Source: Acetobacter nitrogenifigens DSM 23921 = NBRC 105050
GTDB lineage: Bacteria; Pseudomonadota; Alphaproteobacteria; Acetobacterales; Acetobacteraceae
Assembly: GCF_000429165.1 (NCBI RefSeq)
Contig: NZ_AUBI01000013.1
Coordinates: 1-64,000, forward strand
Direction: 5' to 3'
DNA length: 64,000 nucleotides
Each line of letters begins with the position of its first letter. Position 1 is the stretch's first letter. This document shows positions 303 through 58,992 of the stretch, piece by piece. A model generated the notes under the pieces. It was not told the origin of the DNA. It saw only the letters and a list, made by a program, of their open reading frames with translations, and did not search any database. The position numbers and the translations under genes were made by a program.

Positions 303-1005
303 CTAGTTAAGGAGGATGATCACTGAAGTGAACTGCACGGCTGCGAGGAAAGTTGATTTCAGTTTGTCGTAGCGGGTTGCGATAGCGTGGAACTGCTCGA
401 GTTTATTAAAGAATTCTTCGATCACGTTTCGCTCCCTGTAAAGAGCAAAGTCTGTTTCCCGTTGCACCGTCCCGTTTCTTTTGGGCAGGATGACCGGTGT
501 ACTTCGACGTTGTGTCAAATGGTCTATCGGACTGCCTGCGTGGTAAATCTTGTCGGCGAGAAAGGCATTAAGCTCGACTTTTTCCAGAAGCGGCTCGGCC
601 TGAGTGATGTCGGCGTCCTGACCCTGTGTGATATCGAGGTCCACCGGGTCCCCAAGCGCATCGCAGGTGACATGGATGTTGTGGTCAGACCGCTCCGGGA
701 TCGTTCGATGGCCTGATGCGCCTGGACAATCGTACAGTCGATCATCATGTGTTCATTGTCGTGATCCGCCGCCAGATGACGAAATATCCTCTCGATAACA
801 CCACTTTCGCACCAGCGACGCACGCGCCGGTGGACATTCTTCCTGTTGCCGAAGCGCAAAAGAAGATCACGCCACGGTAGCGATACAACACGGCCTCTAC
901 GAACAGACGATTATCCGCAGTTGTTCCGCCAACATGGTCTTCACGACGGGGAAGAACGTCTTTTATCTGTTCCCACCGGTCATTGCGCAAGCCATATCGC
1001 CGCAT
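303..1005 (-). pseudogene. broken IS5-family (IS427-like) transposase
   Basis: Read leftward from an ATG at 1005 the product starts MRRYGLRNDRWEQIKDVLP, a typical start of IS427-group IS5 transposases, and ends '...ATRYDKLKSTFLAAVQF...ILLN', their usual C-terminus. Between these the coding sequence changes frame at least twice. One break is after 'LYRYRGVIFF' near 870-880; a second is near 650-690 after 'AIERSRSGLTT'. The short linker expected after 'IVQAHQ' also seems deleted. The DDE-domain pieces are therefore spread over three frames and the gene cannot make a normal transposase. It is the older of the two nested elements at this edge. Confidence 0.8.
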
Positions 1006-1402
1006 CTGTTGCTCCCCTGAAACCGGAGAAACAATCAGAACGGCCAGCCAGAAAGCACAACTCTCACGACACACGCTCAGCGATCAACTGACGGCACGCC
1101 GTACGGCTTCACCCCACATAGCAACACAGGAGACTCGGGTCCATAAGGTGAACTTCGCGGCGTGTCTGCCGCGAAATGCCGTCTAATGTGAGGGAGGGCG
1201 AATGCGCGTCTGCACAGCTCACCGACGACGCTCCAGAGATTTTAAAAAACACATATTTGTCGTTATATTAATATACTGTATAATGATATCGTATGATAAA
1301 AATTAAACTACTATATTAAGTGCATAAATGTATGAGCCCCACTACCTACACACAGGGTGCGTGCGCGTATGCACGTCGCGGCTGCCGTGACGGCTATCCG
1401 TT
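1006..1402. other. intergenic: IS flank and AT-rich leader of the sigma-factor gene
   Basis: No convincing gene here. Up to about 1090 it is the leader of the broken IS5-family transposase. From about 1240 to 1330 the DNA becomes strongly AT-rich (for example the run around 1255-1320), unlike the coding DNA around it. This is a likely place for the promoter of the downstream sigma-factor gene, but I cannot point to specific -35/-10 boxes. Confidence 0.5.
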
Positions 1403-1924
1403 ATGACTGAAGGAGCGTTCCGAAGCGTGGAAGGGTCACGCGAACTGGCGGCCCTTTTCAGACAAAATTTCCCGTGGCTCGCACGTTACCTTGGACGCAA
1501 GCTCGGAAGCGCCGAACGTGGCGAAGATGCTGCGTCGGAGGTCTTTGCGCGGGTCGCGCGCAGCCGGAACGTTGACACTCTCCTGTCTCCGCGGGCCTAC
1601 CTTCTTGTTGTCGCGAGGCGCCTGATCGGGGAGCTCCGAGGGCGAGGTATGTTGGAACAAACCTATCTCGAGGCTTTATCCCGCGTACCCGAAACATCCA
1701 GCGCTTCACCTGAAGTGGTCGTCAGCCATCTTCAGGAAGTCCGCGCAATCGACGCCGCGCTTGCTACACTGGCACCACGAGCGAGATTGGCCTTCGTAAT
1801 GCATCGTATGGATGGAAAAACACATGCAGAAATCGCGAAGCACCTAGGGGTTTCGATCAGCATGGTCCGAAAATATATTGCTATATCAGAACAGAAATGC
1901 CGTGCAAATTTGAGCGACGCATAG
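1403..1924 (+). CDS. FecI-like ECF sigma factor
   Basis: The product has 173 residues, the usual size of extracytoplasmic-function sigma factors. The N-terminal half has a region-2 core ('LFRQNFPWLARYLGRKLG', 'AEDAASEVFARV'-like wording, then 'SPRAYLLVVARRLIGELRGR'). The C-terminal half has a region-4 helix-turn-helix ('LAPRARLAFVMHRMDGKTHAEIAKHLG' over about residues 122-150, then 'VSISMVRKYIA'). This ordering is typical of the FecI / iron-starvation sigma group. The next gene is a FecR-like regulator starting 14 bases after this stop, then an STN-domain TonB transducer. Together they form the classical surface-signalling cascade, in which ligand at the outer membrane releases this sigma factor. 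Its target is probably the receptor-FGE-sulfatase unit downstream. Confidence 0.88.
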   Translation: MTEGAFRSVEGSRELAALFRQNFPWLARYLGRKLGSAERGEDAASEVFARVARSRNVDTLLSPRAYLLVVARRLIGELRGRGMLEQTYLEALSRVPETSSASPEVVVSHLQEVRAIDAALATLAPRARLAFVMHRMDGKTHAEIAKHLGVSISMVRKYIAISEQKCRANLSDA

Positions 1925-1938
1925 AAGGACTGCCCCCA

Positions 1939-2772
1939 ATGCCCGACAATATACCGTCCCCAGATGCTCTAGATCGCACATTAGCCGAAATGCGGCGACA
2001 ACTGGGCGCGGCCAAAGTCGGAAAAGCATACGAGCGGCGTATCAACCGTCGCAGCTTTCTGATGAGGACGGCGACAGCAGCCGCGCTCGCAGGCGGCGGA
2101 GTATATGTCGCCAGAGACAATGACATCGACTTGCCGGGCATGGGGGCAGACGTTCATACGGCGACCGCACAAATCAGTCGGATTGAGCTCGCCGCGTCGT
2201 CACGGATTACCCTGGCGCCGAGAACGGCTGTCGACATCCGTCACGAGCAAGGCGTCTCTCTTGTCCGCCTCAGGCATGGGACCGTTCTGTTTGAACCTGG
2301 CGAATCACGACTGTCCGCTGCTATTCGTGTGGAAACACGAATGGGCGCGGTCGAGACGATTTCAGCGCCTTTTCAGGCGAGCGCGTCGTCTCACTCGCTC
2401 GCTGTTTCAGCTGCGGACACTCCGGTCGCGGTACACGGTCAGAAGGGGCAATTGGTGCCTATCCCAGCGGGTTGCACGGTCGCAATGTGCCCGTCGGGCA
2501 TGCTCAGGACTACGTCGCTGTGGGACGATGTGAGAGCGTGGACCGGAGGGGACCTTGTCGTCGAAAGCGGCACGCTTCGCGATATTGTAGTTGGCCTGCG
2601 TCCCTACTGGGATGGACACATCGTGATGTCGCCGAGGGCGGCGGACATACCCGCTGCAGGCGTGTTTTCGCTTCTGCAGGTCGACCGCACCCTGGGACAG
2701 CTCGGCGCCGACTTCCCAATCCAGATTAGTCACCTGCCGTTCAGGACCGTTCTCCTCACAGCGATATCCTGA
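1939..2772 (+). CDS. FecR-like anti-sigma / signal-transfer protein
   Basis: I chose the ATG at 1939 because GAAGGA lies 9 bases upstream. An in-frame ATG at 1897 inside the sigma-factor gene has no ribosome-binding site. The 277-residue product has a cytoplasmic N-terminal segment with 'LAEMRRQLG'. A single membrane-spanning stretch follows, rich in Ala and Gly, just after 'NRRSFLMRTATAA' at about residues 34-55. The periplasmic FecR domain comes next ('TARTAVDIRHEQG'-like: 'APRTAVDIRHEQGVSLVRLRHG', 'VETRMGAVETISAPFQ'). The C-terminal part should contact the STN domain of the receptor. It is read with the sigma-factor gene and most likely both inhibits and activates it. The family assignment is firm; the signal is not known. 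Confidence 0.87.
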   Translation: MPDNIPSPDALDRTLAEMRRQLGAAKVGKAYERRINRRSFLMRTATAAALAGGGVYVARDNDIDLPGMGADVHTATAQISRIELAASSRITLAPRTAVDIRHEQGVSLVRLRHGTVLFEPGESRLSAAIRVETRMGAVETISAPFQASASSHSLAVSAADTPVAVHGQKGQLVPIPAGCTVAMCPSGMLRTTSLWDDVRAWTGGDLVVESGTLRDIVVGLRPYWDGHIVMSPRAADIPAAGVFSLLQVDRTLGQLGADFPIQISHLPFRTVLLTAIS

Positions 2773-2891
2773 TCACATAAACACGATATAAATTAGTATA
2801 TTTATTTTTTTCTCTTTTTGGTGTCAGTTTTTTTATCTCACCACTCTCTATGGTTGAAACAACCTAAACGTGACCGAGAGTGCGGAAAGAT
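2773..2891 (+). promoter_or_regulatory. AT-rich leader with small hairpin before the TonB receptor
   Basis: A 119-base gap separates fecR-like and receptor genes. It is rich in T runs at 2800-2835 and contains a perfect small inverted repeat, GGTTG-AAA-CAACC, at 2852-2864, about 27 bases before the receptor start. In fec-type systems the sigma-dependent promoter of the receptor operon lies in exactly this gap. I see the AT-rich bias and the repeat; the promoter itself is inferred. Confidence 0.45.
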
Positions 2892-5555
2892 ATGACAAAA
2901 ATCAGGCGATGGAATCGGGTCGTCGCATCGCTGATGATAGCAGGGGTAGCCGGGCGGCACGCGCTGGCGGAAACACCGAGGGCTTATCATTTTGCTTTGC
3001 CTTCGGCGCCTCTAGCCGAAACACTGATCCGCATTTCGGCGCAGAGTCACTCGCATATAGGCTTCTCACCGACGCTCACAGCGGGCCTTAAGGCCGGTCC
3101 AATCCGAGGATTCCTGACCCCATTGCAGGCGGTGAACGCAGCACTGGCGGGAACGAATCTCTCGCCCAGAACACAAGCCGACGGAAGTCTGGCGATCGGG
3201 CGGGAGGCTACGACTGCCAAAACCGCGCCCAACCCAGGCCCCGAGCCAGCGGCGCCACAATCTTCCGCAGCCGTGCGCAAGGCCGAGAACGTCGAGCACA
3301 TAGAGGCCCGCGGAATGCGCTCCACACGCATTCACCTGCAGAACAAGCCTGTCGCCTCTACAACAGTCGACAAGCAGCAGATTGAGCTTAACCAGATCAC
3401 GAACCTGCAGGAAGCTATACGGCTTCAGCCAAGTGTACAATTTCAGTCGGCGAACCTGCGTAATACAACCATTAACATCAGGGGCCTCGGAGCCGCTTCG
3501 ACGGGCACAGATGGCCTCGAAAACGGCGCGGCCGTCTACATCGACGGCATATATCAGGCGCGGCCGGGTACCGCGCTTTTTGACATTCCAGAGTTGGAAA
3601 GCGTGACCGTTCTTAAGGGACCGCAAGGCACGCTGGGCGGCATCGATACGACGTCGGGAGCAATCCAGATCGAAACGCGACTCCCCTCATTTCGACGCAG
3701 AGCGGAGCTGGAAGCGCAGGCGGGAAATTACGGCGAATATATGATCAAGGCCGATTACTCCCAGGCTTTAGGACACTCTGAAAAAGCCGCGTTCAGCGTG
3801 GATTATTTCCAGTCTGCTCTCGGTGGGTACGTTAAAAACATTTACACTAACAACACAATTTATGGGTATCTGGATCGTGGCGTGAGAGGGCAACTTCTCC
3901 TTCGTCCCGACGATGACGGCAATCTCCAAATTCGTATTGTCGGCGGATATAACCATAACTCCAACAGTATGGGCGTAGGACTTTACAACGGCACAGTCAC
4001 CCGCTACGGCAACGGAAACCCGATCTCCAGCACCTACATTCAGGCGGCTCAGCGCGTAGGTTACAAGATTCCCACGGCTAACCCTTATGGGTTGGGGACC
4101 GATATCAACAGTCAGCAAATGATCCGGTCAGAGGACGCGAACCTGAGCATGCATGCTGACTACAATTTGCACGGCTATACCTTGTCATCCATCTCTGCCG
4201 GATCGATATGGAATTTCTATCCAAGCCTGGATTCGGATTCGACGGGTATAGACATTTACGCAGCCAATCAGGCCCAAAATTACCAACGGCAATTCACGCA
4301 AGAATTTCGGATCACGTCGCCATCTCATCGCCGGTTCGAGTATAGCGGGGGCCTGTTCTATTTGTGGCAGGAAGTCAAAGACCATTCGCGCAAAACGTAT
4401 GGTTCGCAGTACGCGGCCTACAGCGCGTCTGCGTCGGCAACTCCGGAATCCATCGCCCTGACGGACAGGGCATTGAACGGGCTAAGCGTCCTCTCCAATG
4501 AAAAGCCAACTACGAACGCGTACTCCGCTTACGCCAACGCGACATGGCACGCGTCGCCTCGTCTGGATATAACGGGAGGCTTTCGGTACACATATGAGAC
4601 AAAAAACGGAAGCTTCCTCCAGTATCTGAATGGCGGAGGAAATGTCACGGGTCTGAATGCCTCGCAAAAAGCAACCGTGCTACAACAGCGCGCCGCACAG
4701 CTTGCTGCCGACCCGTATCAGGCATTGAAGCACGACAATGGGCTGGTCTCTGGCCAGATGACGGTCAGTTATCACGTCACTCCCACCCAATTGGTCTATG
4801 GCACTTATTCGAGGGGAGAAAAATCCGGAGGCGTGCTCCTGATCGGGCTTGCGTCCAATGTTCCCGCGACTGTCAAATCGGAATATCTAGACAACTATGA
4901 GATTGGGTATAAGAGCACTTTCCTGAACGGAAAAATCACTTTCAATGCAGATGCGTTCTGGATGGTGGATCACAATTACCAGACGTCGATAGTCCAGTAT
5001 AACAACGCGGGTCTCGCGCTGACATACCTCGCCAACGCCAAATCTGCTATTACGCGAGGCTTCGAGGCGGATCTGCGCTACAACCCGACTTCGAATCTCT
5101 CCATGTTCGCATCCGCCACTTACGACGACGCATATTATAATTCATTCGCAAGCGCCCCCTGCGCGATAGAGAACTCGTATAATAAATCTTGTAATTTTAC
5201 AGGCTCTCGCCTGGCTCTCGTTCCAAAATGGGTCGGAGTTCTTGGTTTTGATTATCAGCATGCTGTCGGACATGTCGGAGGCGTCAACCTCATGGCTTAC
5301 GGCGGCGCGACATACACAATGCAATCCTCGTTCTTCGCCGCCACCAATGATTCAATCTACAGCCGGATTAATGGTTACGCACTGTTGAATCTGACCTTCG
5401 GACTTCGTAGCGAAGACCGAAAATGGGACGTCTCTGGCTGGATTCATAACGCCACGGATAAAAAGTACTTCACACTACTGGCTGGAGGTTCACCCCTTAC
5501 GGCTCAGGTGGGTATGCCGCTCGCATTTGGTGGCACTGTCCGCCTGCGTTTGTGA
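2892..5555 (+). CDS. TonB-dependent outer-membrane transducer with STN signalling domain
   Basis: Starting at the ATG at 2892 (a GTG at 2880 is possible), the product has about 887 residues. It has a cleavable signal (hydrophobic 'VASLMIAGVAG', then 'ALAETP') and an STN domain of about residues 29-100 ('FALPSAPLAETLIRISAQ', 'IRGFLTPLQAVNAALAGTNL'). After a linker a TonB-box-like stretch ('ENVEHIEARG') precedes the plug ('INIRGLGA', 'VYIDGIYQARPGTALFDIPE', 'VTVLKGPQGTLGG'). The rest is a 22-strand-type barrel that ends with the usual aromatic strand. The STN domain marks it as a signalling receptor working with the upstream sigma / anti-sigma pair. The substrate is not readable from sequence. 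Its co-transcribed partners suggest a sulfated compound, which is inference. The stop overlaps the next gene's start by four bases. Confidence 0.92.
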   Translation: MTKIRRWNRVVASLMIAGVAGRHALAETPRAYHFALPSAPLAETLIRISAQSHSHIGFSPTLTAGLKAGPIRGFLTPLQAVNAALAGTNLSPRTQADGSLAIGREATTAKTAPNPGPEPAAPQSSAAVRKAENVEHIEARGMRSTRIHLQNKPVASTTVDKQQIELNQITNLQEAIRLQPSVQFQSANLRNTTINIRGLGAASTGTDGLENGAAVYIDGIYQARPGTALFDIPELESVTVLKGPQGTLGGIDTTSGAIQIETRLPSFRRRAELEAQAGNYGEYMIKADYSQALGHSEKAAFSVDYFQSALGGYVKNIYTNNTIYGYLDRGVRGQLLLRPDDDGNLQIRIVGGYNHNSNSMGVGLYNGTVTRYGNGNPISSTYIQAAQRVGYKIPTANPYGLGTDINSQQMIRSEDANLSMHADYNLHGYTLSSISAGSIWNFYPSLDSDSTGIDIYAANQAQNYQRQFTQEFRITSPSHRRFEYSGGLFYLWQEVKDHSRKTYGSQYAAYSASASATPESIALTDRALNGLSVLSNEKPTTNAYSAYANATWHASPRLDITGGFRYTYETKNGSFLQYLNGGGNVTGLNASQKATVLQQRAAQLAADPYQALKHDNGLVSGQMTVSYHVTPTQLVYGTYSRGEKSGGVLLIGLASNVPATVKSEYLDNYEIGYKSTFLNGKITFNADAFWMVDHNYQTSIVQYNNAGLALTYLANAKSAITRGFEADLRYNPTSNLSMFASATYDDAYYNSFASAPCAIENSYNKSCNFTGSRLALVPKWVGVLGFDYQHAVGHVGGVNLMAYGGATYTMQSSFFAATNDSIYSRINGYALLNLTFGLRSEDRKWDVSGWIHNATDKKYFTLLAGGSPLTAQVGMPLAFGGTVRLRL

Positions 5556-6628
5556 AAGCGCCATTGTTCATGCCTGAAAGCCAAATAGAGAAACCGGTGA
5601 AGCCGTGCTGCTCCCCTACCCGGGACCAGATTACGCCGACGCCGCCACCATCAGTTACTGGTAGGCCGGTAGCCCGTCCCAATGGTGTCAACTGCGGTCG
5701 CCCCTCCCAAGAAGGAACGTCGCGCCGAGTTACCGCTTTCGATCCATCCGACATGGCCTTCATTCCGGGAGGCCTTTACGAGATCGGATACGAAGGCTCG
5801 CAGGCGCACATTGCGGACGGAGAGGGACCAGTCAGACAGATTGAGATAAACGCCTTCCTCATGGATCGCTTCTGCGTGACCAACCAGGACTTCGCTGTCT
5901 TCGTGGCCGCCACCGGTTACAAAACCGAAGCAGAGCGCCTTGGCTGGTCGTTTGTGTTTCACACCGACGTGCGACCTTCCGCCCGTCGCGACGTATTGTC
6001 GGCAAGGTTGCCCGGCGCACCCTGGTGGCGCGCAGTTCGCAGCGCCTTCTGGAGACGACCAGAGGGAAGAGGGTCGCACATCACCGGGCGGGAGCGACAG
6101 CCCGTCGTGCATGTTTCCTGGAACGATGCGCAGGCTTATGCAGTCTGGAAAGGAAAGCGCCTGCCCACAGAGAGTGAATGGGAGGTCGCCGCCCGGGGTG
6201 GATTAAGTGGCGCCGTATACCCGTGGGGCGACGAATTGACGCCTAATGGACACCATCGAAGCAATACCTGGCAGGGAATTTTTCCGGATGCAGATGTAGC
6301 CAAGGATGGCTATGCGGGAACCGCGCCTGTGGACGCGTTTGAGCCTAACGGCTACGGGCTGTTCAACATGACCGGGAATGTGTGGGAGTGGTGTTCAGAT
6401 TTCTGGAGCACAAACTGGCATATGGCTGCAACCGATGCGACGCGAAAAAACCCGCAAGGGCCGAATGACGGGATCGATCACGTCATTCGCGGCGGTTCTT
6501 ATCTGTGCCACGCTTCCTACTGCAATCGCTACCGTGTCGCCGCAAGGACACGCACTGGGCCCGATAGCTCTTTATGCCATCTTGGCTTTCGCTGTGCTGC
6601 CGATGTTGCGAATGCGCACGAAATTTGA
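5552..6628 (+). CDS. formylglycine-generating enzyme (sulfatase-modifying factor)
   Basis: FGE oxidises the cysteine of a C-x-P-S-R motif in sulfatases to formylglycine. This 358-residue product has the FGE fold markers: 'FIPGGLYEIG', 'VTNQDFAVFVAATGYKTEAE', 'PVVHVSWNDAQAYAVWKGKR', 'LPTESEWEVAARGG', 'YPWGDE', 'NGYGLFNMTGNVWEW'. The active-site block is GGSYLCHASYCNRYR. The two cysteines, codons 6506-6508 and 6521-6523 (residues 319 and 324), are five apart as in the aerobic copper-dependent FGE family. The start is a GTG overlapping the receptor stop (GTGA). The first 60 or so residues are unlike the family and may be a variable extension. The sulfatase gene follows with a TGATG overlap, so the pair is translationally coupled. 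Confidence 0.92.
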   Translation: MKAPLFMPESQIEKPVKPCCSPTRDQITPTPPPSVTGRPVARPNGVNCGRPSQEGTSRRVTAFDPSDMAFIPGGLYEIGYEGSQAHIADGEGPVRQIEINAFLMDRFCVTNQDFAVFVAATGYKTEAERLGWSFVFHTDVRPSARRDVLSARLPGAPWWRAVRSAFWRRPEGRGSHITGRERQPVVHVSWNDAQAYAVWKGKRLPTESEWEVAARGGLSGAVYPWGDELTPNGHHRSNTWQGIFPDADVAKDGYAGTAPVDAFEPNGYGLFNMTGNVWEWCSDFWSTNWHMAATDATRKNPQGPNDGIDHVIRGGSYLCHASYCNRYRVAARTRTGPDSSLCHLGFRCAADVANAHEI

Positions 6629-8049
6629 TGAAAACAATGACTGGAAACTCAATGACGACGCTTACCCGACGCGCACTTTTATCCACCACCGCGCAAGCGA
6701 CGATGGCGGCGGCGCTTCCATCCATTGCGCACGCCGGTCCTCAGCCGCGGCGACGTCCAAATATAATCTATATCATTGCTGATGATCTCGGTGTTTACGA
6801 CCTCGGTTGCTATGGTCAAAAGAAGATCCGCACTCCCAATATCGACGCGCTGGCCGCCAACGGCATGCTCTTCAACAGCGCTTACGGCGGCGCCCCGATT
6901 TGTTCACCGTCGCGCTGCGCTCTTATGACAGGCAAGAACATGGGTCACTCAACAATTCGCGATAATTTTGCTCTACAGGGCGGGATTATCGGAAAACGCG
7001 GAAAAGAGTCTGTTAGACGCATCGGCCTTGCTCCCGGTGAAAAAACGGTGGCGACTGCTATGGCCGAAGCAGGATATATGACCGGATTGGTCGGTAAATG
7101 GCATCTTGACGGATACGACCCCAACGCAATCCCCACACGGCACGGTTTTCAGGAGTTTCATGGCTGGTTGACCCAAACGGAAACAACTCAGGGTTACTTT
7201 CCAACGCAGTGGTATTCCGGAGAAAAACTGGGGAACATTCCAGAGAACGCCAACGGGAAACAAGCTGTCTATGAAACAGACATATGTACCGATCAGGCTT
7301 GTGATTTCATACGCAAGAATCAAAAATCGCCTTTCTTTCTGACCTTAGCTTACAACGCCCCGCACAGTCCGCATATCACCCCCACGACCGGATCCTACGC
7401 AGGACATCCGTGGGGCGAGTATGAAAAAAATTATGCAGCAATGATTGAGTTTCTCGATGCCGGCGTCGGCGCCGTGGTGCAGACGGTTCGGGAGGCTGGT
7501 CTTGAAAAAGATACCGTGATTTTTGTGTCCTCCGACCACGGTCCTCGGTCGGAACCTACTGCGGAACAAACTGAAGTGGTGGAATTTTTTGATTCGCATG
7601 GATCTCTCCGGGGATACAAGCGCGACCTTTACGAAGGGGGAATTCGGGTGCCCTTGATAGTTTCATGGCCGGGGCACATTCGGGCTGGTTCAGTCAGCGA
7701 TGAGCCGGTTTACCACCCTGATTTCCTGCCGACCGCAGTCGCACTTGCGGGCGACGGTCGTTTGTATCCGGATATGGATGGAGCGGATATCTCTCCAGTT
7801 CTTCTCGCTCGTGGGAGAATCGCATCCCGCTATCTCTATTGGGAAACATATGAACCATCTTTTTGGCAAGCTGCGCGACATGGGCGCTGGAAAGCCGTGA
7901 AACCTGTCGGGGGAGGAAAAATCCAACTTTTCGATCTTCTTGAGGATCCGTCGGAAATCAAGGATGTGTCGGCAGAAAACTCGGCCATTGTTGAGAGTTT
8001 TGTACGTTACTTTAAAGAGTGCCGTGTGGCATCGCCAAATTATATTTAG
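6628..8049 (+). CDS. type I (formylglycine) sulfatase with Tat-like signal
   Basis: From the ATG at 6628, overlapping the FGE stop by one base, the product has 473 residues. The N-terminus is Tat-like ('TLTRRALLSTTAQATMAAAL', then 'AHA' for cleavage). The alkaline-phosphatase-fold motifs are in order: metal-binding 'IIADDLG', the nucleophile motif CSPSR with its Cys at residue 92 (codon 6901-6903), 'GKWHLDGYDP', 'YNAPHSPH', and the second metal site 'SSDHGPRSE'. The catalytic cysteine is the substrate of the FGE encoded just upstream. Maturation in the cytoplasm followed by Tat export of a folded enzyme would place it in the periplasm, behind the TonB receptor. It resembles arylsulfatase A-type / choline-sulfatase-like enzymes broadly. 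The natural sulfate ester is unknown. Confidence 0.92.
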   Translation: MKTMTGNSMTTLTRRALLSTTAQATMAAALPSIAHAGPQPRRRPNIIYIIADDLGVYDLGCYGQKKIRTPNIDALAANGMLFNSAYGGAPICSPSRCALMTGKNMGHSTIRDNFALQGGIIGKRGKESVRRIGLAPGEKTVATAMAEAGYMTGLVGKWHLDGYDPNAIPTRHGFQEFHGWLTQTETTQGYFPTQWYSGEKLGNIPENANGKQAVYETDICTDQACDFIRKNQKSPFFLTLAYNAPHSPHITPTTGSYAGHPWGEYEKNYAAMIEFLDAGVGAVVQTVREAGLEKDTVIFVSSDHGPRSEPTAEQTEVVEFFDSHGSLRGYKRDLYEGGIRVPLIVSWPGHIRAGSVSDEPVYHPDFLPTAVALAGDGRLYPDMDGADISPVLLARGRIASRYLYWETYEPSFWQAARHGRWKAVKPVGGGKIQLFDLLEDPSEIKDVSAENSAIVESFVRYFKECRVASPNYI

Positions 8050-8116
8050 CAGTTAGCACTACAGTTGCTTTTTGTGTTGAGTTCTGAATCTTTCGGCAAC
8101 TATGATTCAGGATATG

Positions 8117-8453
8117 ATGAGTGGCGGCGCGTCAGTTGAAGAGACGCTGGGTTTGTGGGCGTCCGGGCTTCGGTCCGCCAGGGAGCGGATCACGCCGTTG
8201 TTTACGCAGAAGCGTGTTGCGGCCTCTGCGTGTGCCTGCCTGGACGTTCTGATTGGCTATGAACCACGCAAGACGGGCTGGACGCGAGCGGAAGTCGCAG
8301 GAGATCTTGGTCCATGGCGGCAGCAGGCGCTTCTGGGGGGCGGGCACTGATGATGGCGTGCTGGTCATCGATAAGACCGGTTTTCTGAAGAAGGGTCAGG
8401 CGTCCTGCGGTGTGGGGCGGCAATATACGGGCTCTGCCGACACGATCACGAAC
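8117..8453 (+). pseudogene. IS701-family transposase remnant
   Basis: The frame from the ATG at 8117 reads MSGGASVEETLGLWASGLRS and '[11 protein letters not shown]', the N-terminal part of IS701-family DDE transposases. Coding then continues in another frame with '[20 protein letters not shown]' and '[13 protein letters not shown]'. About 25 residues between the two pieces are missing. The remnant is cut at 8453 by the inverted repeat of an IS6-type element, and I do not find its remainder on the far side. Confidence 0.75.
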
Positions 8454-9236
8454 GGTGATGTCACATAAACGCAGGCATGGTAAGCGGGCGGCATGAGCAC
8501 GACTGCAGCAAGCTATAAACGCATCGTTTTCCACGTGAGTTGATTGCGCATACAGTGTGGCTGTATTTCCGGTTTCCGCTGAGCTTTCGTCTGATCGAAG
8601 AGATGCTTCTCGAGCGCGGGATTGTCGTGTCGTATGAGACGATCTGCCGTGGGAGGAGGAAATTCGGTGCGTATTTGCCCGGTCGTTGCGCCGCAAACCC
8701 GCCAAACACGGGGATATCTGGCATCCTGACGAAGTCCGTATCGTGATCGGCGGCCAGCCGCACTGGCTGTGGCGTGCTGTCGATCAGGACGGCTACGTTC
8801 TTGATGAAATCCCGCAAAGACGACGCAACACGAAAACGGCGAGGCGGCTGCTGACACGGCTTCTCAGGAAGCAGGGCGCCGGACCAGAACGCATGATTAC
8901 CGACAAACTGAAATCATACGGAACAGCAAAGCGTCAGGCCGTGCCCTATGTGGAACACAGATCTCACAAAGCCTGAGCAACATGGCGGAGAATTCGCATC
9001 TGCCCTTGCGAAAGCGCGATCGCGCCATGCAACGGTGCGAGGCTGTCTGCGCTTCGTCGCAGTCTTCTCCGCCGTGCGTAACGCCTTCGTTCCACCAGCC
9101 TCAATCAACAACGCCATAGCCCGACATCTGCACCTTCTCAGCGCGTTTGCTCAATGGAATGGCGCGATCGCTCTCCCCGCCTGAAAAATCACTCAAACGC
9201 CTTCCAATACCACTCGCCAGTTAACGTGACAGCACC
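8454..9236 (+). mobile_element. decayed IS6-family insertion sequence (783 bp)
   Basis: Both ends are visible. The left end GGTGATGTCACATAAAC (8454-8470) matches the inverted right end at 9220-9236 (read on the minus strand GGTGCTGTCACGTTAAC) at 14 of 17 positions. The 783-base span is normal for IS6 elements. The left flank TCACGAAC (8446-8453) and the right flank TCACAAC (9237-9243) fit an 8-base target duplication that has lost one base. The element inserted into the IS701 remnant. Confidence 0.75.
8493..9184 (+). pseudogene. IS6-family transposase, frameshifted
   Basis: The reading starts at the ATG at 8493 (MSTTAASYKR) and hits a stop after one base was lost near 8523. In the next frame the family sequence resumes: 'LIAHTVWLYFRFPLSFRLIE', 'EMLLERGIVVSYETICR'. 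A second shift near 8650-8690 leads to 'DIWHPDEVRIVIGGQPHWLW' with the first DDE aspartates, then 'RRNTKTARRLLTRLLRKQG', 'RMITDKLKSYG'. A third near 8965 leads to 'FVAVFSAVRNAFVPPASINN'. At least three frameshifts make it inactive. The order and spacing fit a full-length IS6 transposase of about 230 codons. Confidence 0.82.
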
Positions 9237-9477: not shown

Positions 9478-9723
9478 CTACCACTCATCATATGCGGCCT
9501 GCATCCGGATCCAGAGACCAGGCCCATTCCCGAAGAGTTTGCCCAAACGCACCCCGACTTCAGGGCTGACCGGCTTGCGCTCGGCGAGAATGTCATAAAG
9601 ATGCTGCCGGGAAATCCCGAGCAACCGTGCAATCTCGGCTTTGCTCCGCTCTGTGGCGGGAATAACGTCTTCGCGCAGCAATGCGCCTGGATGCGTCGGG
9701 CAGCGACTAACGATGCGAGCCAT
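9478..9723 (-). CDS. higA: HigA-family antitoxin (XRE helix-turn-helix)
   Basis: The 81-residue product begins MARIVSRCPTHPGALLREDV, the standard start of HigA-type addiction-module antitoxins. A helix-turn-helix follows over about residues 26-55 ('SKAEIARLLGISRQHLYDIL', 'PVSPEVGVRLGKLFG'), then 'LWIRMQAAYDEW' at the end. It would bind its own promoter and neutralise HigB. The toxin gene should lie directly upstream and does so at 9733, but that copy is broken. The antitoxin itself looks complete, with a GAGGT ribosome-binding site 4 bases before the ATG. It may now be an orphan regulator. Confidence 0.85.
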   Translation of the reverse strand: MARIVSRCPTHPGALLREDVIPATERSKAEIARLLGISRQHLYDILAERKPVSPEVGVRLGKLFGNGPGLWIRMQAAYDEW

Positions 9724-9732
9724 GCTTACCTC

Positions 9733-9960
9733 TTAATGGTGTTGTTCAAAGTCAAGAACATAGGCGTCGCCGCCTGAGAACTCGAAGGTAATGCACCAGG
9801 GCCCGTTTACATGAACGGTATAACGGACCGGTGTATATCCCCTGAGAGCATGAAAATCGAACCCGGGCAGGTTCATGTCTTATGCACTTGTTGACGCATC
9901 AAGTGCATCCGGCCGACGCAGAATCCGTTTCTCACACTTTGACATTCAGATGCCGTGAGC
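9733..9960 (-). pseudogene. higB: degenerate HigB-family toxin
   Basis: Nine bases upstream of higA on the same strand, translation gives the C-terminal half of a RelE/HigB toxin: MNLPGFDFHALRGYTPVRYT, then 'VHVNGPWCITFEFSGGDAY' and 'VLDFEQHH' before a TAA at 9733-9735. The family reads 'LDA...DMNLPG' here. In this copy the codon two before the Met is TAA (9880-9882), most simply a CAA-to-TAA change. Further upstream 'EKRILRRPDALDAST' is still recognisable, but another stop breaks the frame near 9945 and no normal N-terminus is found. The intact part covers only 47 residues (9733-9876). The RNase fold is unlikely to form. Confidence 0.7.
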
Positions 9961-10041
9961 AGGAGCCATCCACACCATCTGCTTTACGAAACGCGGTTCG
10001 GTAATGCCGTATGACCGAAACGAAGAGCCATACCGGAACTG

Positions 10042-10353
10042 TCAGGCCCGGCTGACAAGTTCGTCGATCGCGTGCAGTAGTGCATCCCGCTCGGATTCGA
10101 TTACGAAGCCCAGCAACGGACCCAGTCGGTTCGCCGGCACCGTCGCAAGGTCGAACGGGTTGGCGAAAACCGCCTTCCCTTCCACAGTCATATGTGGGGT
10201 CAGAGCGTGATCTGGCGGGGCGCCCGGCGTCAGTCGGACAAGGGGAATGACAACTCGTCCCACACTGCGGTCAAGACGGCTGCTCTGCACCTGAACCACG
10301 AACAGAATGTCGCGATTGCGGCCGGGATTAGGGTAGATGGCGAATTGCGGCAT
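10042..10353 (-). CDS. ccdB: CcdB-family toxin
   Basis: The 103-residue product matches the CcdB family in length and layout: MPQFAIYPNPGRNRDILFVV at the start, 'QSSRLDRSVGRVVIPLVRL' in the middle, 'LTPHMTVEGKAVFANPFDLA' and 'LGPLLGFVIESERDALLHAI' near the end. CcdB poisons DNA gyrase by trapping its cleavage complex; residues near the C-terminus make the gyrase contact. The gene follows the antitoxin gene after only three bases, the classic antitoxin-first order. No damage is visible. Whether this member targets gyrase cannot be told from sequence. Confidence 0.88.
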   Translation of the reverse strand: MPQFAIYPNPGRNRDILFVVQVQSSRLDRSVGRVVIPLVRLTPGAPPDHALTPHMTVEGKAVFANPFDLATVPANRLGPLLGFVIESERDALLHAIDELVSRA

Positions 10354-10356
10354 GAG

Positions 10357-10617
10357 TTACAGCGTCGAAAACTCATCACTGAGGAAGCCATGCACGCTGT
10401 GTAGGGCATTAACGGCGTCCAGTACACTATTGAGCTGCCTCGCTGCTTCGTCGCGCTGCGAGCGAGCGCTCTGGACATAAGAAGCCAATAATTCCTCGAC
10501 GGTTCCTGAGACGTTAGGCGTCAGGCTGCGGACCTGAGCAATCAGGTCCGAGTTGAGCGACAGATTGATCGGGCGTCGCGGAGCATTGGTGTCATATGTA
10601 GCGTAAGATGAAGTCAT
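10357..10617 (-). CDS. ccdA: CcdA-family antitoxin
   Basis: The ATG at 10617 is chosen because AAGGAG lies 7 bases upstream; a longer frame to 10680 would run through the operator. The 86-residue product has an N-terminal ribbon-helix-helix type segment ('RRPINLSLNSDLIAQVRSL') for DNA binding and a C-terminal, probably disordered arm ('RDEAARQLNSVLDAVNALHS') that would wrap the toxin. Its last residues FLSDEFSTL resemble the typical CcdA end. The pair is autoregulated in known systems. Two perfect palindromes sit just before the ribosome-binding site. Confidence 0.87.
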   Translation of the reverse strand: MTSSYATYDTNAPRRPINLSLNSDLIAQVRSLTPNVSGTVEELLASYVQSARSQRDEAARQLNSVLDAVNALHSVHGFLSDEFSTL

Positions 10618-10629
10618 CGACGTTCTCCT

Positions 10630-10650
10630 TATGCGCATAGTATGCGCATA
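10630..10650. promoter_or_regulatory. tandem palindromic operator of ccdAB
   Basis: TATGCGCATA, a perfect 10-base palindrome, occurs twice, at 10630-10639 and 10641-10650, with one base between. It lies directly before the ribosome-binding site of ccdA. A looser half-copy, TGTGCGCA, follows at 10657-10664. The spacing of 11 bases places repeats on the same DNA face, as expected for cooperative binding by a ribbon-helix-helix repressor. Function is inferred from position and symmetry. Confidence 0.65.
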
Positions 10651-10664
10651 GACCGCTGTGCGCA

Positions 10665-10953
10665 AATTTTTATCTGCCATGACAGCGCCCGGTTAGCTTC
10701 CGCTCTTCAGACACCGAACAGGAGGCGAGACTGTCCAGTTTGAGAGGCGGTAGCCACAATAAGCAGGAACGCTGCGCGGGACTGGTTTTGGTCATCTCTC
10801 TCCGATAACCGACCTTCCGATTACCCCCAAAGCCGTAACCGCGACGCGTCAAATTCCGCTAAAAGCCTTTAAACAGGTTTCATTTGCATGCACATCGCCC
10901 GGGTCGAGAACCTTGCGGGGATAGAGCTGTGACACCCCCCTGCCGCACGACAT
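10665..10953. other. intergenic, no gene seen
   Basis: The roughly 290 bases between the ccdAB operator and the end of the NADP-binding protein gene show no coding pattern on either strand that I trust, and no strong hairpin. Confidence 0.4.
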
Positions 10954-19340: not shown

Positions 19341-20840
19341 ATGGCTCTGGCGTCGCTCATGAGCGGCTGGCGCGGTTCGACTGTGTCTCCTGTACGCGAA
19401 TGTCTGGCCGGAATGGTCGCGACGTTCGCACTGATCCCGGAAGTGATCGCATTTGCGTCGGCCGCAGGCGTCGACCCTTCGGTCGGCCTTTACGCCTCCT
19501 TCGTCATCAGCGTGGTCATCGCGTTCGCTGGCGGACGTCCCGCCATGATCTCCGCCGCTGCAGGGTCGGTCGCGCTGGTCGCGGCCGGACTGGTGCATAC
19601 GCACGGAGTGCAATACCTCTTCGCGGCGACGCTGTTGTGCGGCGCAATCCAGGTGGCCTTCGGCTTGCTGCGGGTCCATGTCCTGATGCGCTTCGTGGCG
19701 CGTTCAGTTCGCACGGGATTCGTAAACGCCCTGGCTATCCTGATCTTCTACGCCCAGACACCGCATATGATCGGCGTATCGTGGCAGACATACGCGCTGA
19801 TCGCGCTGGGTCTCGCGATTATTTATCTCGTGCCCAAGGCATTTACGGCCATACCCTCCCCGCTCATCTGCATCGTGGTTCTTACCGTGATCGTCACGAT
19901 GTATCCGATGCCGGTGGAGACTGTGGCGGACCTTGGCCGCCTTCCGGACGGCCTACCGACGCCGGGCTTCCCTCACCTCCCCCTGACTTTGCAGACGCTG
20001 GGCGTCGTGGCCCCTTACGCGTTCGCTATGGCGATGGTCGGGTTGCTCGAAAGCCTGATGACCGCGCGAGTCGTCGACGACATGACGGGAACGACGTCGA
20101 ACAAGCGCCGCGAGAGCGTCGGACTTGGGCTGGCCAACTTTGCAGCCGGAGCGTTCGGCGGAATCGGCGGATGCGGGATGATCGGTCAGACAGTAGGCAA
20201 TGTTCGTTACGGCGGACGGGGACGCCTCTCAACATTGATGGCCGGGGTTTTTCTGCTCGTCCTGATCGTCGCGCTTCGTCCGTTCATCGCTCGCATACCG
20301 GTCGCGGCTCTTGTCGCCATCATGATCATGGTGTCGATCAGCACGTTCTCATGGGCGTCGTTGCGTGAATTGGTCGCGCATCCGAAACTGGCGAGCACGG
20401 TGATGCTCAGCACCGTTGCAGTCGTGGTCGCAACCAGCGACCTTGCTGCGGGCGTCGCCGTAGGCGTTTTGCTGAGCGGCGTATTCTTCGCTTCCAACGT
20501 CTCATCCATGCTTCGCGTGGAAAGGACGCTCGATCCCGTCTCTGGCGCGCGGAAATACGTCGTGCGCGGCGAAATTTTCTTCGCATCAGCAGAGCTTCTG
20601 GAGGAATCGATCGATTACGACGATTCTGCCGAACCATCCGGCGCTGCCCCCGCTCCGCCTCGAGATGTCGTTATCGACCTTCGGGGCGCCCATCTTTGGG
20701 ACATCACATCTGTTGGTTCAGTGGAGACCATCGTGGAGAAACTTCGCGCTCGGGGGCACGGCGTGACATTGCTTGGCCTGAACGAGGCCAGCGAAGCGCT
20801 GCTGCGGCGCCACGGGGATGTCGACGCCACAATAGCCTGA
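19341..20840 (+). CDS. SulP-family anion transporter with STAS domain
   Basis: The 499-residue inner-membrane protein has the SulP fold: about ten to fourteen hydrophobic segments, with 'MVATFALIPEVIAFASAAGV' and 'GGRPAMISAAAGSVALVAAG' in the first core and 'VGLLESLMTARVVDDMTGT' and 'NFAAGAFGGIGGCGMIGQT' in the second. A cytoplasmic STAS domain follows from about residue 395 ('YVVRGEIFFASAELLEESI', 'VVIDLRGAHLWDITSVGSVE', 'VTLLGLNEASEALLRRHG'). The family carries sulfate, bicarbonate or C4-dicarboxylates; the substrate is not readable here. It is a single gene with an AAGGA site 8 bases before its ATG. A link to the sulfatase unit 11 kb away is only speculation. Confidence 0.9.
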   Translation: MALASLMSGWRGSTVSPVRECLAGMVATFALIPEVIAFASAAGVDPSVGLYASFVISVVIAFAGGRPAMISAAAGSVALVAAGLVHTHGVQYLFAATLLCGAIQVAFGLLRVHVLMRFVARSVRTGFVNALAILIFYAQTPHMIGVSWQTYALIALGLAIIYLVPKAFTAIPSPLICIVVLTVIVTMYPMPVETVADLGRLPDGLPTPGFPHLPLTLQTLGVVAPYAFAMAMVGLLESLMTARVVDDMTGTTSNKRRESVGLGLANFAAGAFGGIGGCGMIGQTVGNVRYGGRGRLSTLMAGVFLLVLIVALRPFIARIPVAALVAIMIMVSISTFSWASLRELVAHPKLASTVMLSTVAVVVATSDLAAGVAVGVLLSGVFFASNVSSMLRVERTLDPVSGARKYVVRGEIFFASAELLEESIDYDDSAEPSGAAPAPPRDVVIDLRGAHLWDITSVGSVETIVEKLRARGHGVTLLGLNEASEALLRRHGDVDATIA

Positions 20841-43753: not shown

Positions 43754-43820
43754 CTTGTCCTGCGTCGTCCTGCTTTTATCTGGACTGACGCTGTGGCGGA
43801 CTCCGTTTGATTGCCGGCGT

Positions 43821-43904
43821 GGCCGCATCCTCCCTTTCGGAAGCGCCACCTTGCCCGGACGGCAGGTTGGCGTCGGGCGTCGGCCCAACTCTTGATGTGC
43901 CGCC
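43821..43904 (-). ncRNA. putative SAM-clan (S-box-like) riboswitch of metA
   Basis: Read on the minus strand, about 68 bases before metA, the leader has landmarks of SAM-I / SAM-IV type riboswitches. In order these are ACATCAAGAG, a GGGC-CGAC-GCCC hairpin, GCCAACC, a TGCC...GGGC stem, AAGGTGGCGCTTCC, a GAAA tetraloop closing TTCC/GGGA, then GGATG. The first CATC pairs with the last GATG, closing the fold. It lacks the longer P3 insertion of classic S-box RNAs, so it may be a SAM-I/IV-like variant. Alphaproteobacterial metA is often under SAM control, which fits. No covariance search was possible. Confidence 0.5.
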
Positions 43905-52180: not shown

Positions 52181-53017
52181 TCATTCCACGTCAGGACGTT
52201 GCGGCGACAGCGCTCCGCCTTCCACTGAGAAGGTCATTCCGTCGAAAGCCGCTTCGATTCCGTCGGGCAGTTCACGCTGCATCCACGCCCAATCCATGGC
52301 AGTTCCAAGATGCGTGAGAATCGTGCGCCGAGGGCGGATACGTGCCGCCCATTCTACAACACGCTCGAGCCAGCCATGGGCGGAGTGCGGCTTGAGCTGG
52401 AAGCAATCCACCATCCAGGTGTCGACGCCTTCAAGAAGCGTCAGGACATCATCCGTAAAAGAAGCAACATCTGTGCAGTAAGCAAACGAGCCGCAGCGGA
52501 AGCCCAGTGAGTTCAGCTTTCCATGATCCTGCTCGAACACGGTCAGCGAAAGTCCTGCTATGTCCAGAACCTGCCCGGCCATGATTGGCCGCGCCACGAC
52601 GCCCGGCCGGAAGAAATCTTTCGTGGTCCATGGTCGGAATGCGTAATCGAAGCGCGTCCGCACCTCATCCAGCGTCGCCGAAGTTCCAAATGCCTCGATC
52701 GCCCGCCCGGCGGCCCAGTTAAGCGGCCTCACGTCGTCCAGACCCGCGATATGATCAGCGTGGGCGTGCGTGTAGAAAATCGCGTCGATGACGCCAATTC
52801 CATTCGCCAGCAGCTGGGCGCGTAAATCCGGACCGGTATCGACCAGTATGCGCCGTCCATCCGGCCCGGTCAGGACGATGGATGATCTCGTCCTGCGGTT
52901 CCGCGGTTCAGCAGGATCGCAGGAACCCCACTCACCACGCCCATCTGGCCCTCCGATCTGCGGCACGCCCGACGAGCCTCCGCACCCAAGAACCGCGATG
53001 TTCAACCGTATGCTCAC
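52181..53017 (-). CDS. metallo-beta-lactamase-fold hydrolase (PhnP-like)
   Basis: The 278-residue product starts 'MSIRLNIAVLGCGGSSGVPQ', the G-x-G-x-S-x-G start of PhnP / RNase Z-type MBL proteins. 'GRRILVDTGPDLRAQLLANG' and the metal motif 'AIFYTHAHADHIAGLDDVRP' (H-x-H-x-D-H) follow, then 'LGFRCGSFAYCTDVASFTDD' and 'ILTHLGTAMDW' near the end for the remaining metal ligands. Members cleave cyclic phosphodiesters or small phosphate esters; this one is unknown. It is the last gene of the tmk-holB-metG-tatD run. Confidence 0.88.
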   Translation of the reverse strand: MSIRLNIAVLGCGGSSGVPQIGGPDGRGEWGSCDPAEPRNRRTRSSIVLTGPDGRRILVDTGPDLRAQLLANGIGVIDAIFYTHAHADHIAGLDDVRPLNWAAGRAIEAFGTSATLDEVRTRFDYAFRPWTTKDFFRPGVVARPIMAGQVLDIAGLSLTVFEQDHGKLNSLGFRCGSFAYCTDVASFTDDVLTLLEGVDTWMVDCFQLKPHSAHGWLERVVEWAARIRPRRTILTHLGTAMDWAWMQRELPDGIEAAFDGMTFSVEGGALSPQRPDVE

Positions 53018-53077
53018 CGCGCCTTCCGTCCGTCAGTCACACATACGTCCTCTTCGCAAAATTTGATGGCGTCGCTT

Positions 53078-53905
53078 TTAAGGCGCCGGTCGTCGAGCTT
53101 TGGTGAACAGGCGATGAAAATTCGCGGTCGTGACGTCCGCGAAGGCCGCAGGCTCGAGCCCGACCGTATCCGCCACCGTCGCGGCAGTGAAGGCGACGTA
53201 AGATGGCTCATTACGTTTCCCACGCTTCGGCGCCGGCGCGAGATACGGAGAATCCGTCTCCACCAGCAGGCGATCGTGCGGCACGATACGCGCGATGTCG
53301 CGCAGTTCCGAAGACTTCGGGAATGTCGCGATTCCCGAAAAACTCAGATAGCCGCCAAGAGCGAGCGCCCTGCCCGCCAGATCCGGCCCGGACGCAAAGC
53401 AGTGCAGCAGGAACGGAAAAGCGCCGCGCGTCTCCGTCTCGTCCTCCAGAACCGCTGCGACGTCGTCGTCAGCCTGACGCGCGTGAATGACCAGCGGCAG
53501 GCCGGCCAGACGAGCGGCGTGGATATGCGCCCGGAAACTCGCTTGCTGAAGCGGGCGCATCTCCGGCGCCCCATGAAAATAATCGAGCCCACTTTCCCCG
53601 ATCGCCACGACTTCCGGCGCGTCGGCGAGTTCCGCTATCCGCGCGGCTTCTGGCGTCTCTTCTTCATCCACATGGTCCGGATGCGTGCCGATCGAGCACC
53701 AGATCGCGAGGTCAGGTCGGGAGTGACGGGTCAGCGCCTTCTGCTCATGTTGGAGAGACAGCCGCGTGCCGATCGTCACCATGCCGTCCAGCCCGGCTTC
53801 CCGTGCGCGATCCAGCAGCAAAGGCAGTTCCTCGTCCGAAAAATGATCGAGGTGACAATGCGAGTCTATCAAGCCCGCAGTATGACCCGTCCCCTGAGCC
53901 GTCAT
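53078..53905 (-). CDS. TatD-family metal-dependent hydrolase
   Basis: The 275-residue product has the amidohydrolase start 'GLIDSHCHLDHFSDEELPLL', 'MVTIGTRLSLQ', 'WCSIGTHPDHVDEEETPEAA', 'VAIGESGLDYFHGAPEMRPL', 'LLVETDSPYLAPAPKRGKRN' and 'VAFTAATVADTVGL', all TatD hallmarks with the H-x-H and later Glu and Asp metal ligands. Known members act as 3'-5' exonucleases or D-aminoacyl-type hydrolases. The gene overlaps metG by four bases (ATGA), so they are co-translated. Confidence 0.93.
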   Translation of the reverse strand: MTAQGTGHTAGLIDSHCHLDHFSDEELPLLLDRAREAGLDGMVTIGTRLSLQHEQKALTRHSRPDLAIWCSIGTHPDHVDEEETPEAARIAELADAPEVVAIGESGLDYFHGAPEMRPLQQASFRAHIHAARLAGLPLVIHARQADDDVAAVLEDETETRGAFPFLLHCFASGPDLAGRALALGGYLSFSGIATFPKSSELRDIARIVPHDRLLVETDSPYLAPAPKRGKRNEPSYVAFTAATVADTVGLEPAAFADVTTANFHRLFTKARRPAP

Positions 53906-55449: not shown

Positions 55450-55702
55450 GTCTGCTCTTGGCTTCCCGGTTGCTTTGGTCGATGGGTTACGTGCGAGGCG
55501 AGGCGATTCGCCGGACCTGCTGCATGTTTGTCGATAAAAGTCACTCATACCGGATGCAGACGCCTCTCGCGAGGCCCGGCGGCATGTTCTCCATGCAGCC
55601 GCCGTCTTCAGACGACGGTTCAGCTGTCAGCTCAACAGATTACCACCGCATTCCATCCCCCATGGACAGCGCAGACGCCCGGAGACCGCCCACTCGTCGC
55701 AA

Positions 55703-56710
55703 CTAGCGCCCGCCAGCGACAGACAGCGCCTCGATGACCGCTTCATGCTTATCCAGATTAAAGCGTTCCGTCTCCGATCGGATGCGGCCCACATTCGTCC
55801 AGCGTTCAGCCAGCGCCGCGCTTTCCTCCAGCCGTCCGGCCCGCCGCGTCGCCGCCGCCAGAACGTCCGCCAGAAGCGTGAAGAAAAGCGGGAATCCCAC
55901 GTCGCTGCGGGCTATTCCCTCTGCAACGTCGAGCATCCGCGCGACGCTCATGCCAGCCAACGCTTCCTGAGCGACACCAGCCAACGCACCGCCTTTGTCA
56001 GCAAGCAACGCGATCGCGCGCCCCGGCGATCCCTGCGCGAGCGGGAGCACGCGCTCGATCTCGGACGGCTCAGCATCGCTCGCCTCGCGCATCAGAACGG
56101 CGCGCACCGACGCCTCGTCCAACGGCGGCACAGTCAACGTCCGGCACCTGCTGCGAATAGTGGGCAGGAGGCGGCCCGGCGTCGCACAGGTAAGCAGCAG
56201 AATCGCCCGATTGGGCGGTTCCTCAAGCACCTTAAGCAGCGCGTTCGCCGCGTTGCGGTTCATCGCGTCGACGTTGTCGACCAACACCACCCGCCACCCG
56301 CCCTCGGCGGCCGTGCGATGGAGAAAGGCGCCAATCGGCCGAATCTCATCGGCGACGATTTCACCACGAAAACGTTGCTTTTTCTCGTCGTAGCTGCGGC
56401 CGATGGCCAGAAGGTCCGGGTGGGAGCCCGCCGTCACCTGCCTGCCCGCCGAAGACGCCGCATCTTCCGCGTTCAGCAGGATTCGGGCCATGCGAAAGGC
56501 CAGAGCCGCCTTGCCTACGCCCTCCGGTCCGGTCAGCAACCAGGCGTGATGAAGCCTGCCGGTCGTAAACGCATTTCTGAAGGCGCTCAGGCTGGCCTCA
56601 TGTCCCGTCAGGGACAGAGAAGCTCTTCGCGCCTTGTCGAGCGGGCGCTCTTCCGTCGCTATCGGAGCCGCGCTGGCGGCCCTGGACCGCGAACCTCTGG
56701 GCGCGGCCAT
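55703..56710 (-). CDS. holB: DNA polymerase III delta' subunit
   Basis: The 335-residue clamp-loader subunit has a P-loop 'HHAWLLTGPEGVGKAALAFR', 'WRVVLVDNVDAMNRNAANAL', 'LKVLEEPPNRAILLLTCATP' and 'RLLPTIRSRCRTLTVPPLDE', the standard arrangement of delta'. The usual cysteine zinc cluster after the P-loop is missing, as in some alphaproteobacterial forms. The gene lies two bases from tmk, as in many bacteria, so both belong to one transcript. Confidence 0.92.
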   Translation of the reverse strand: MAAPRGSRSRAASAAPIATEERPLDKARRASLSLTGHEASLSAFRNAFTTGRLHHAWLLTGPEGVGKAALAFRMARILLNAEDAASSAGRQVTAGSHPDLLAIGRSYDEKKQRFRGEIVADEIRPIGAFLHRTAAEGGWRVVLVDNVDAMNRNAANALLKVLEEPPNRAILLLTCATPGRLLPTIRSRCRTLTVPPLDEASVRAVLMREASDAEPSEIERVLPLAQGSPGRAIALLADKGGALAGVAQEALAGMSVARMLDVAEGIARSDVGFPLFFTLLADVLAAATRRAGRLEESAALAERWTNVGRIRSETERFNLDKHEAVIEALSVAGGR

Positions 56711-56712
56711 CT

Positions 56713-58989: not shown

Positions 58990-58992
58990 ATC

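Follow-up and report, generated by a model that had tools for sequence, protein, structure and literature searches.

Cell-surface signalling systems of the FecI-FecR-FecA and PupI-PupR-PupB type place an extracytoplasmic function (ECF) sigma factor next to a FecR protein with a PupR-like periplasmic domain and a TonB-dependent receptor (TBDR) bearing an STN domain. As far as we know, work on FecIR signalling in Proteobacteria has centred on iron carriers. FecIRA-like systems acting beyond iron, in virulence, fitness and oxidative stress, are described in the accessible part of PMC12772443. Sulfatase clusters with a TBDR are also known, as in the Pseudomonas atsACBR-sftR-atsK-sftP cluster for sulfate esters, where the available portion of PMC3596284 places an arylsulfatase, a LysR regulator and a TonB-dependent receptor together, and in the Bacteroides mucin polysaccharide-utilisation loci (PULs), where, in B. 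theta, S1 sulfatases and SusC share a locus type with an ECF sigma factor and an anti-sigma factor (PMC10154612). Here we describe a five-gene module (1403..8049, + strand) in a 64,000-nucleotide stretch of contig NZ_AUBI01000013.1 of Acetobacter nitrogenifigens DSM 23921 = NBRC 105050, hereafter the window. Like the Fec and Pup systems, it joins an adjacent ECF sigma factor, a FecR protein and an STN receptor, but it differs from them in its cargo of a formylglycine-generating enzyme (FGE) and a sulfatase, in its organosulfur-linked barrel and in the lack of a Fur box in our search. The Pseudomonas cluster, as far as the source covers it, has the LysR regulator SftR and ATP-binding cassette (ABC) transporter genes, whereas the module has FecI/FecR, an STN domain and no ABC importer. 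Similarly, the Bacteroides loci in the portion of the source consulted have SusC, SusD and glycoside hydrolases, whereas the module brings an FGE of its own and lacks SusD and glycoside hydrolases among its five genes, so that the SusC/SusD pair of Bacteroidetes PULs was not found. On the basis of gene content and relatives, we consider it probable that the five genes constitute a sulfur-scavenging operon that is induced by its substrate, a sulfate ester, through cell-surface signalling.

The module comprises five + strand open reading frames (ORFs), in the order FecI-type ECF sigma factor (1403..1924), FecR-type anti-sigma factor/transducer (1939..2772), STN-type TBDR/transducer (2892..5555), FGE (5552..6628) and Cys-type (CSPSR) sulfatase (6628..8049). 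This agreed with a prior sequence-only reading of the window, which had proposed five genes of these families in one direction; every family scored over its Pfam cut-off except STN. Likely gene starts, as read from the sequence, were ATG 1939 for FecR (alternative start 1897), ATG 2892 for the receptor (alternative GTG 2880), GTG 5552 or ATG 5570 for the FGE and ATG 6628, 6637 or 6652 for the sulfatase. The same five-gene order was identified in Acetobacter sacchari (L003), Acetobacter sp. DsW_063 (L004) and an Acetobacter metagenome-assembled genome (MAG; L005), whose contig stops inside the sulfatase. Order and spacing were conserved in all three, the most distant of which shares 90% DNA identity with the module, and the frames were open throughout the contig extent. 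With the GTG start, the receptor and FGE genes would overlap by GTGA (5552-5555), a sequence present in all three relatives; the FGE and sulfatase genes can overlap by TGATG at 6626-6630, which was kept in L003 and L005 and reads TGACG in L004. The translational coupling proposed earlier is consistent with both overlaps here, with the reservation that the second is missing from one relative.

The signalling components were assigned by several lines of evidence. The sigma factor matched Sigma70_r2 and Sigma70_r4_2 and is of the FecI type, though its 118 bits against the NCBIfam FecI model lie under the equivalog cut-off of 260, that is, below the cut-off for ferric-citrate FecI itself. In the receptor, PF07715 and PF00593 were matched, and the STN domain (2964..3224) obtained 20.2 bits against a Pfam cut-off of 28.4, making it the sole sub-threshold domain of the module families. 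Its position N-terminal to the plug was identified instead through 44-48% identity to other FecIR-linked STN domains and through matches of the receptor, from residues 26-37 onward, to the FpvA, FoxA, CntO and FemA chains, a range within which STN falls. The FecR protein matched PF04773, and its residues 84-281 aligned with chain 6ovk_R (E 7e-10), which identifies it as an anti-sigma factor with a periplasmic signalling domain; the chain is the PupR periplasmic domain in complex with the PupB signalling domain, according to the accessible part of PMC7186176.

The FGE was supported by 266 bits to PF03781, by 410 bits to chains 5nxl/6s07 and by the presence of both cysteines of LCHxSYCNRYR, which we take to be the active-site pair. 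The sulfatase (PF00884, 200 bits) carries CSPSR, a Tat-like TRRALL leader and an SGSH_C domain, together with DDLG, GKWH, SSDHG and GYKRDLYEGG, presumably further sulfatase site motifs, which were covered by its alignment to the closest solved sulfatases, and was assigned to the type I (Cys, S1) sulfatases. An RR motif (NRRSFLM) also precedes a short membrane segment read from the FecR sequence, and the two RR motifs suggest twin-arginine (Tat) export of both proteins. Tat-dependent insertion is known for FecR-type proteins. Across the 4.27 Mb assembly (51 contigs, 99.9% complete), the only PF00884 match and the only PF03781 match (E 0.001) were those within the module; the FGE is therefore an activator with one evident client.

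From this arrangement we infer a relay in which a sulfated organic molecule would bind the outer-membrane receptor, the receptor STN domain would signal to the periplasmic part of FecR, and FecR would activate the FecI-like sigma factor, which would in turn transcribe the receptor, FGE and sulfatase genes. The receptor would then import the sulfated molecule, while the FGE would turn the CSPSR cysteine into formylglycine in the cytoplasm and the Tat-like leader would export the sulfatase, so that sulfate would be released in the periplasm. The relatives of the module point to sulfur scavenging rather than to one particular substrate.

The ancestry of the receptor plug and barrel was examined among its relatives. 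A search of 299 genomes of the family, with at most three candidates scored in each, returned close matches at 36-39% identity (L184-L196) and more distant ones (L197-L212). Relatives of TauD, SsuA, SsuC, sulfatase, FGE, luciferase-like monooxygenase or Sbp lay beside 12 of the 13 close receptors vs 5 of the 16 distant ones when equal 4-kb flanks were compared (Fisher p 0.002); the sole close receptor without such a neighbour (L185) sits 0.5 kb from a contig end. With 1.5-kb flanks the counts were 11/13 vs 5/16, an uneven comparison since partial matches cut the flanks of the distant receptors. In a tree of 44 receptors, the four module receptors fell inside a 20-row clade (support 100/97), and all 16 non-module rows of the clade neighbour sulfonate-type (Ssu, TauD) or sulfatase/FGE genes. 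Placement of the module receptor within an organosulfur-linked TBDR clade is thus supported by the sequence comparison, and the exact sister of the module inside it is less certain (91/85). In the sister subclade, SsuA (TIGR01728) exceeded the NCBIfam cut-off in six of six loci (L215, L217, L218, L219, L220 and L222), as did SsuD in L219; SsuA stayed below the cut-off in L113, L216, L221 and L224, and in L221 and L224 the TauD-type proteins fell short of the taurine-dioxygenase cut-off. No FecI, FecR or STN match (E 0.001) was obtained in receptor loci L184-L225 and L230-L244, the window's own locus (L183) excepted.

Distribution of the sulfatase and its activator was examined in parallel. Some sulfatase match (E 0.001) was found in 233 of 397 genomes of the family, again with up to three candidates scored per genome. 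Among full-length best matches, the window aside, identity above 41% was limited to G254 (67%) and G339 (61-64%), and of 13 other genomes sampled from the same genus, none held a sulfatase above that value and one gave a weak match. The sulfatase orthologs (61-67%) sit in islands alongside additional sulfatases, an FGE, a receptor and genes for sulfate-type transporters, to which the G254 island adds ASST, TauD and Ssu-like genes. These Acetobacteraceae sulfate-ester islands (G254 = L113, G339 = L114 and Gluconobacter L006-L009) resemble the module in their related receptor, FGE and sulfatases, and differ from it in carrying multiple sulfatases as well as ABC transporter genes of the sulfate type and, in the stretches covered, no STN, FecI or FecR. 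In G254, the related receptor adjoins a sulfatase and an FGE without FecIR, and the receptor/sulfatase link therefore exists independently of the signalling genes. The 20-kb stretch covered there (L113 1-20000) is a dense organosulfur island, with several sulfatases, FGE, an arylsulfotransferase-like gene, TauD, Ssu-like genes, a sulfate ABC transporter and a TBDR.

The same five-gene order, which the sequence-only reading had proposed to look for, was sought with the FGE as query, and the FGE and sulfatase stood with the FecI/FecR pair in all three other Acetobacter loci found; in a hidden Markov model screen of 137 loci, FecI and FecR stood alongside FGE/sulfatase in L003-L005 only, a negative for the rest that short contigs limit. 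Among the FGE loci, one (L050) has a FecI about 9 kb away. In a class-wide sample of 385 genomes, FecR was matched in 16 (E 1e-8) and a sulfatase in 24 (E 1e-40), the overlap being this genome only, which is a weak negative because FecR is divergent. Similar sulfatases matched 808 plasmid records, and in the five inspected out of 20 listed no annotated FecI or FecR was present in the stretches viewed; in one of them, Novosphingobium pNL2, a TBDR adjoins the sulfatase. The receptor matched 293 plasmid records (25 listed).

Several observations weigh against the sulfur-scavenging reading. FecI/FecR were absent from all 39 sulfatase loci screened as top matches (L130-L168) and were found in 3 of the 80 FGE loci kept from 100 confirmed ones, all three in Acetobacter, with many of the FGE contigs short. 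Since relatives of the receptor, FGE and sulfatase outside Acetobacter lacked nearby FecI/FecR in the loci screened, the FecIR link is narrow. The TGATG overlap is absent from L004, and the STN domain scores below the Pfam cut-off. As to the receptor, TauD, NMT1 or permease genes lie by 5 of the 16 distant receptors, so that the organosulfur association is non-exclusive; 5 of the 16 clade rows (L006-L009, L114) were fetched via FGE/sulfatase and are biased, the other 11 having come via the receptor search; and nearer receptors were possibly missed because at most three candidates were scored per genome. The sulfonate-type genes near the L003 module lie on a separate contig here (C34, 630-5810) and were left uncounted. 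Additionally, comparisons of FecI and STN were restricted to loci fetched by other queries, and the FecIR lineage closest to the module is that of a peptidase operon, for which reason its signal is not transferable to the module. The interpretation given in the sequence-only reading is partly supported, namely by FGE/sulfatase retention in Acetobacter and by the organosulfur receptor clade, and is limited by the narrow FecIR link.

An iron-chelate (siderophore) transducer, with the FGE and sulfatase as passengers or trimming a sulfated siderophore, is an unlikely alternative identity for the receptor. Its best PDB matches were pesticin, ferripyoverdine, ferrioxamine and pseudopaline receptors, and among NCBIfam models the TonB-dependent siderophore receptor subfamily scored best, though under its cut-off. 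Most TBDRs of known structure are iron receptors, which would bias the PDB matches. Plasmid relatives of FecR (996 records) were, among the 30 listed, mostly Klebsiella fecR at 25-31% identity, annotated as ferric-citrate FecR, and FecIRA-like cascades are common iron regulators according to the part of PMC12772443 consulted. Against this identity stand the ties of the barrel clade to Ssu, TauD and sulfatase genes and the lack of a Fur box before fecI. Against an E. coli-type consensus, the best site before fecI or the receptor reached 11/19, with shuffle means of 10.8 and 11.0, and on that basis the Fur box of an iron-uptake FecIR system was not found. In Xanthomonas, by comparison, the Fur box of a FecIR receptor under Fur control reaches 17/19 (PMC1790865).

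The module could also be read as a sulfated-glycan system feeding carbon, comparable to Bacteroides PULs, which seems improbable to us. By sequence, the nearest sulfatases of known structure carry the labels N-acetylgalactosamine-6-sulfatase, arylsulfatase and carrageenan sulfatase, an SGSH_C domain is present, and in the B. theta loci noted above S1 sulfatases and SusC occur with an ECF sigma factor and an anti-sigma factor (PMC10154612), but no glycoside hydrolase, lyase or SusD occurs among the five genes, and the related receptors accompany sulfonate and sulfate transport genes. Less probable still is an accidental order driven by insertion sequences (IS), in which a FecIR-receptor unit and an FGE-sulfatase pair would be co-transcribed without joint function. 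IS remnants on both sides, the lack of a FecIR link in the loci screened outside Acetobacter and the altered L004 overlap would fit such an accident, whereas the order and spacing kept with open frames in three relatives to 90% DNA identity, and the G254 receptor that adjoins a sulfatase and FGE without FecIR, argue against it.

Within the module, the signalling parts appear to have a different history from the receptor body. FecR matches were obtained in 36 of 397 genomes of the family, and the best four after the window all came from one genus (g42), in which the order FecI, FecR, large STN receptor, M13 peptidase occurs in four of four loci (L126-L129). Identity of the module proteins to those of g42 was 49-52% for FecI, 34-36% for FecR and 44-48% for STN, vs 23-36% in other FecIR loci; four further FecR loci (L122-L125) had short flanks only, which do not cover the cargo. 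The g42 operons hold the nearest FecI, FecR and STN found, in the same order and followed by a hydrolase, but their larger receptors match the module receptor across residues 1-180 only, and a peptidase replaces FGE and sulfatase. Since the receptor body and the signalling parts have two different nearest lineages, the module looks like a mosaic, with a FecI-FecR-STN cassette of another lineage joined onto an organosulfur receptor. We see about even chances for the further proposal that the complete cassette was transferred onto this receptor, that signalling was thereby rewired in Acetobacter from another ligand to organic sulfur, and that the result is a mobile, self-contained operon for sensing, importing and desulfating one class of sulfate ester. 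The g42 operons are, in their own right, a further example of FecIR signalling genes next to a hydrolase; in L127 (6666-10095) two overlapping frames encode the STN receptor, perhaps because of a frameshift or sequencing error.

A candidate FecI-dependent promoter may lie directly before the receptor, where a near-invariant block (2820..2900, +) containing the palindrome GGTTGAAACAACC runs into the receptor start and varies at 2 of 81 positions across the four loci. The region ahead of fecI (1130..1402, +), common to L003-L005 and AT-rich by eye at about 1261-1320, is less conserved, with a mean column identity of 91% over 1130-1445 in the four loci.

Comparison with the relatives suggested that the module was transferred horizontally and moves among Acetobacter strains. 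DNA identity across the module was 96.1% to L003, 96.2% to L004 and 90.0% to L005, whereas a housekeeping segment of 7.8 kb (52181-59940 of the window) shared 92% and 91% with the L003 and L004 assemblies and 67-78%, in pieces, with that of L005, a MAG contig that is possibly misbinned. This greater likeness of the module between assemblies suggests horizontal movement. Homology to the relatives spans about 1130-8056, beginning at 1130-1133 (L003-L005) and ending at 8053-8056 (L003/L004), and the GC content at third codon positions was 0.51-0.64 in the five module genes vs 0.68-0.75 in five other window genes of our choosing. To the left lie IS4/IS5-type transposase remnants (303..1074, -; DDE_Tnp_1 over and DUF4096 below cut-off), interrupted by stop codons and scanned as separate open pieces, and to the right an IS6/IS240-type transposase fragment (8686..8976, +; DDE_Tnp_IS240). 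In L004, each of the two contig ends bears one end of a single IS type, adjacent to CTAG. The IS flanks from which acquisition was suspected earlier were confirmed, with remnants up to 1074 and from 8686, and the acquisition is supported by the lower third-position GC and by the unequal divergence. Between the module and the right-hand fragment, an ORF at 8102-8350 gave no Pfam match.

Other features were recorded near the module and its relatives. A CCxP motif (window 5606-5617) lies in the N-terminal extension ahead of the FGE domain. Of 83 strong FGE matches (E < 1e-60; loci among L003-L082, L113, L114), 33 share it, including some from Verrucomicrobia, Acidobacteria and Rhodobacteraceae. 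FGE is a copper enzyme, and a metal role for the motif is a guess on our part. In A. sacchari, an NMT1-type binding protein, a TBDR and a luciferase-like monooxygenase lie near the module (L003 14677-19707). Elsewhere in the window, a SulP-type sulfate permease is encoded at 19341-20840, and an ordinary SAM-I/IV riboswitch (43797-43903, -) lies by a homoserine O-succinyltransferase gene. At 9478-10680 (-), a small helix-turn-helix ORF accompanies a gene pair resembling CcdA/CcdB by eye, presumably a toxin-antitoxin pair, which had no family match in a PADLOC scan; that scan gave one weak match among three small downstream ORFs.

Given the Pseudomonas sft cluster, the B. theta PULs and the FecIRA systems beyond iron, each part of the module has precedent. 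No such combined module was described in the open-licence literature searched by titles and abstract starts (some listings being partial), and a module that joins these parts with an FGE of its own and a mosaic receptor had no precedent among the literature matches listed. A term search of the available text of a cell-surface signalling review gave no word starting with 'sulf' (PMC9249621). The module offers a compact test of whether organic sulfur can be reported by a FecIR relay. It is also a natural example in which an STN domain, with its nearest-kin sigma/anti-sigma pair, sits on a receptor from another clade. If the proposed history is true, STN and the sigma/anti-sigma pair would be a natural plug-in module, and if the proposed function is, the activation of a sulfatase by FGE would be linked to ligand sensing within one gene cluster.

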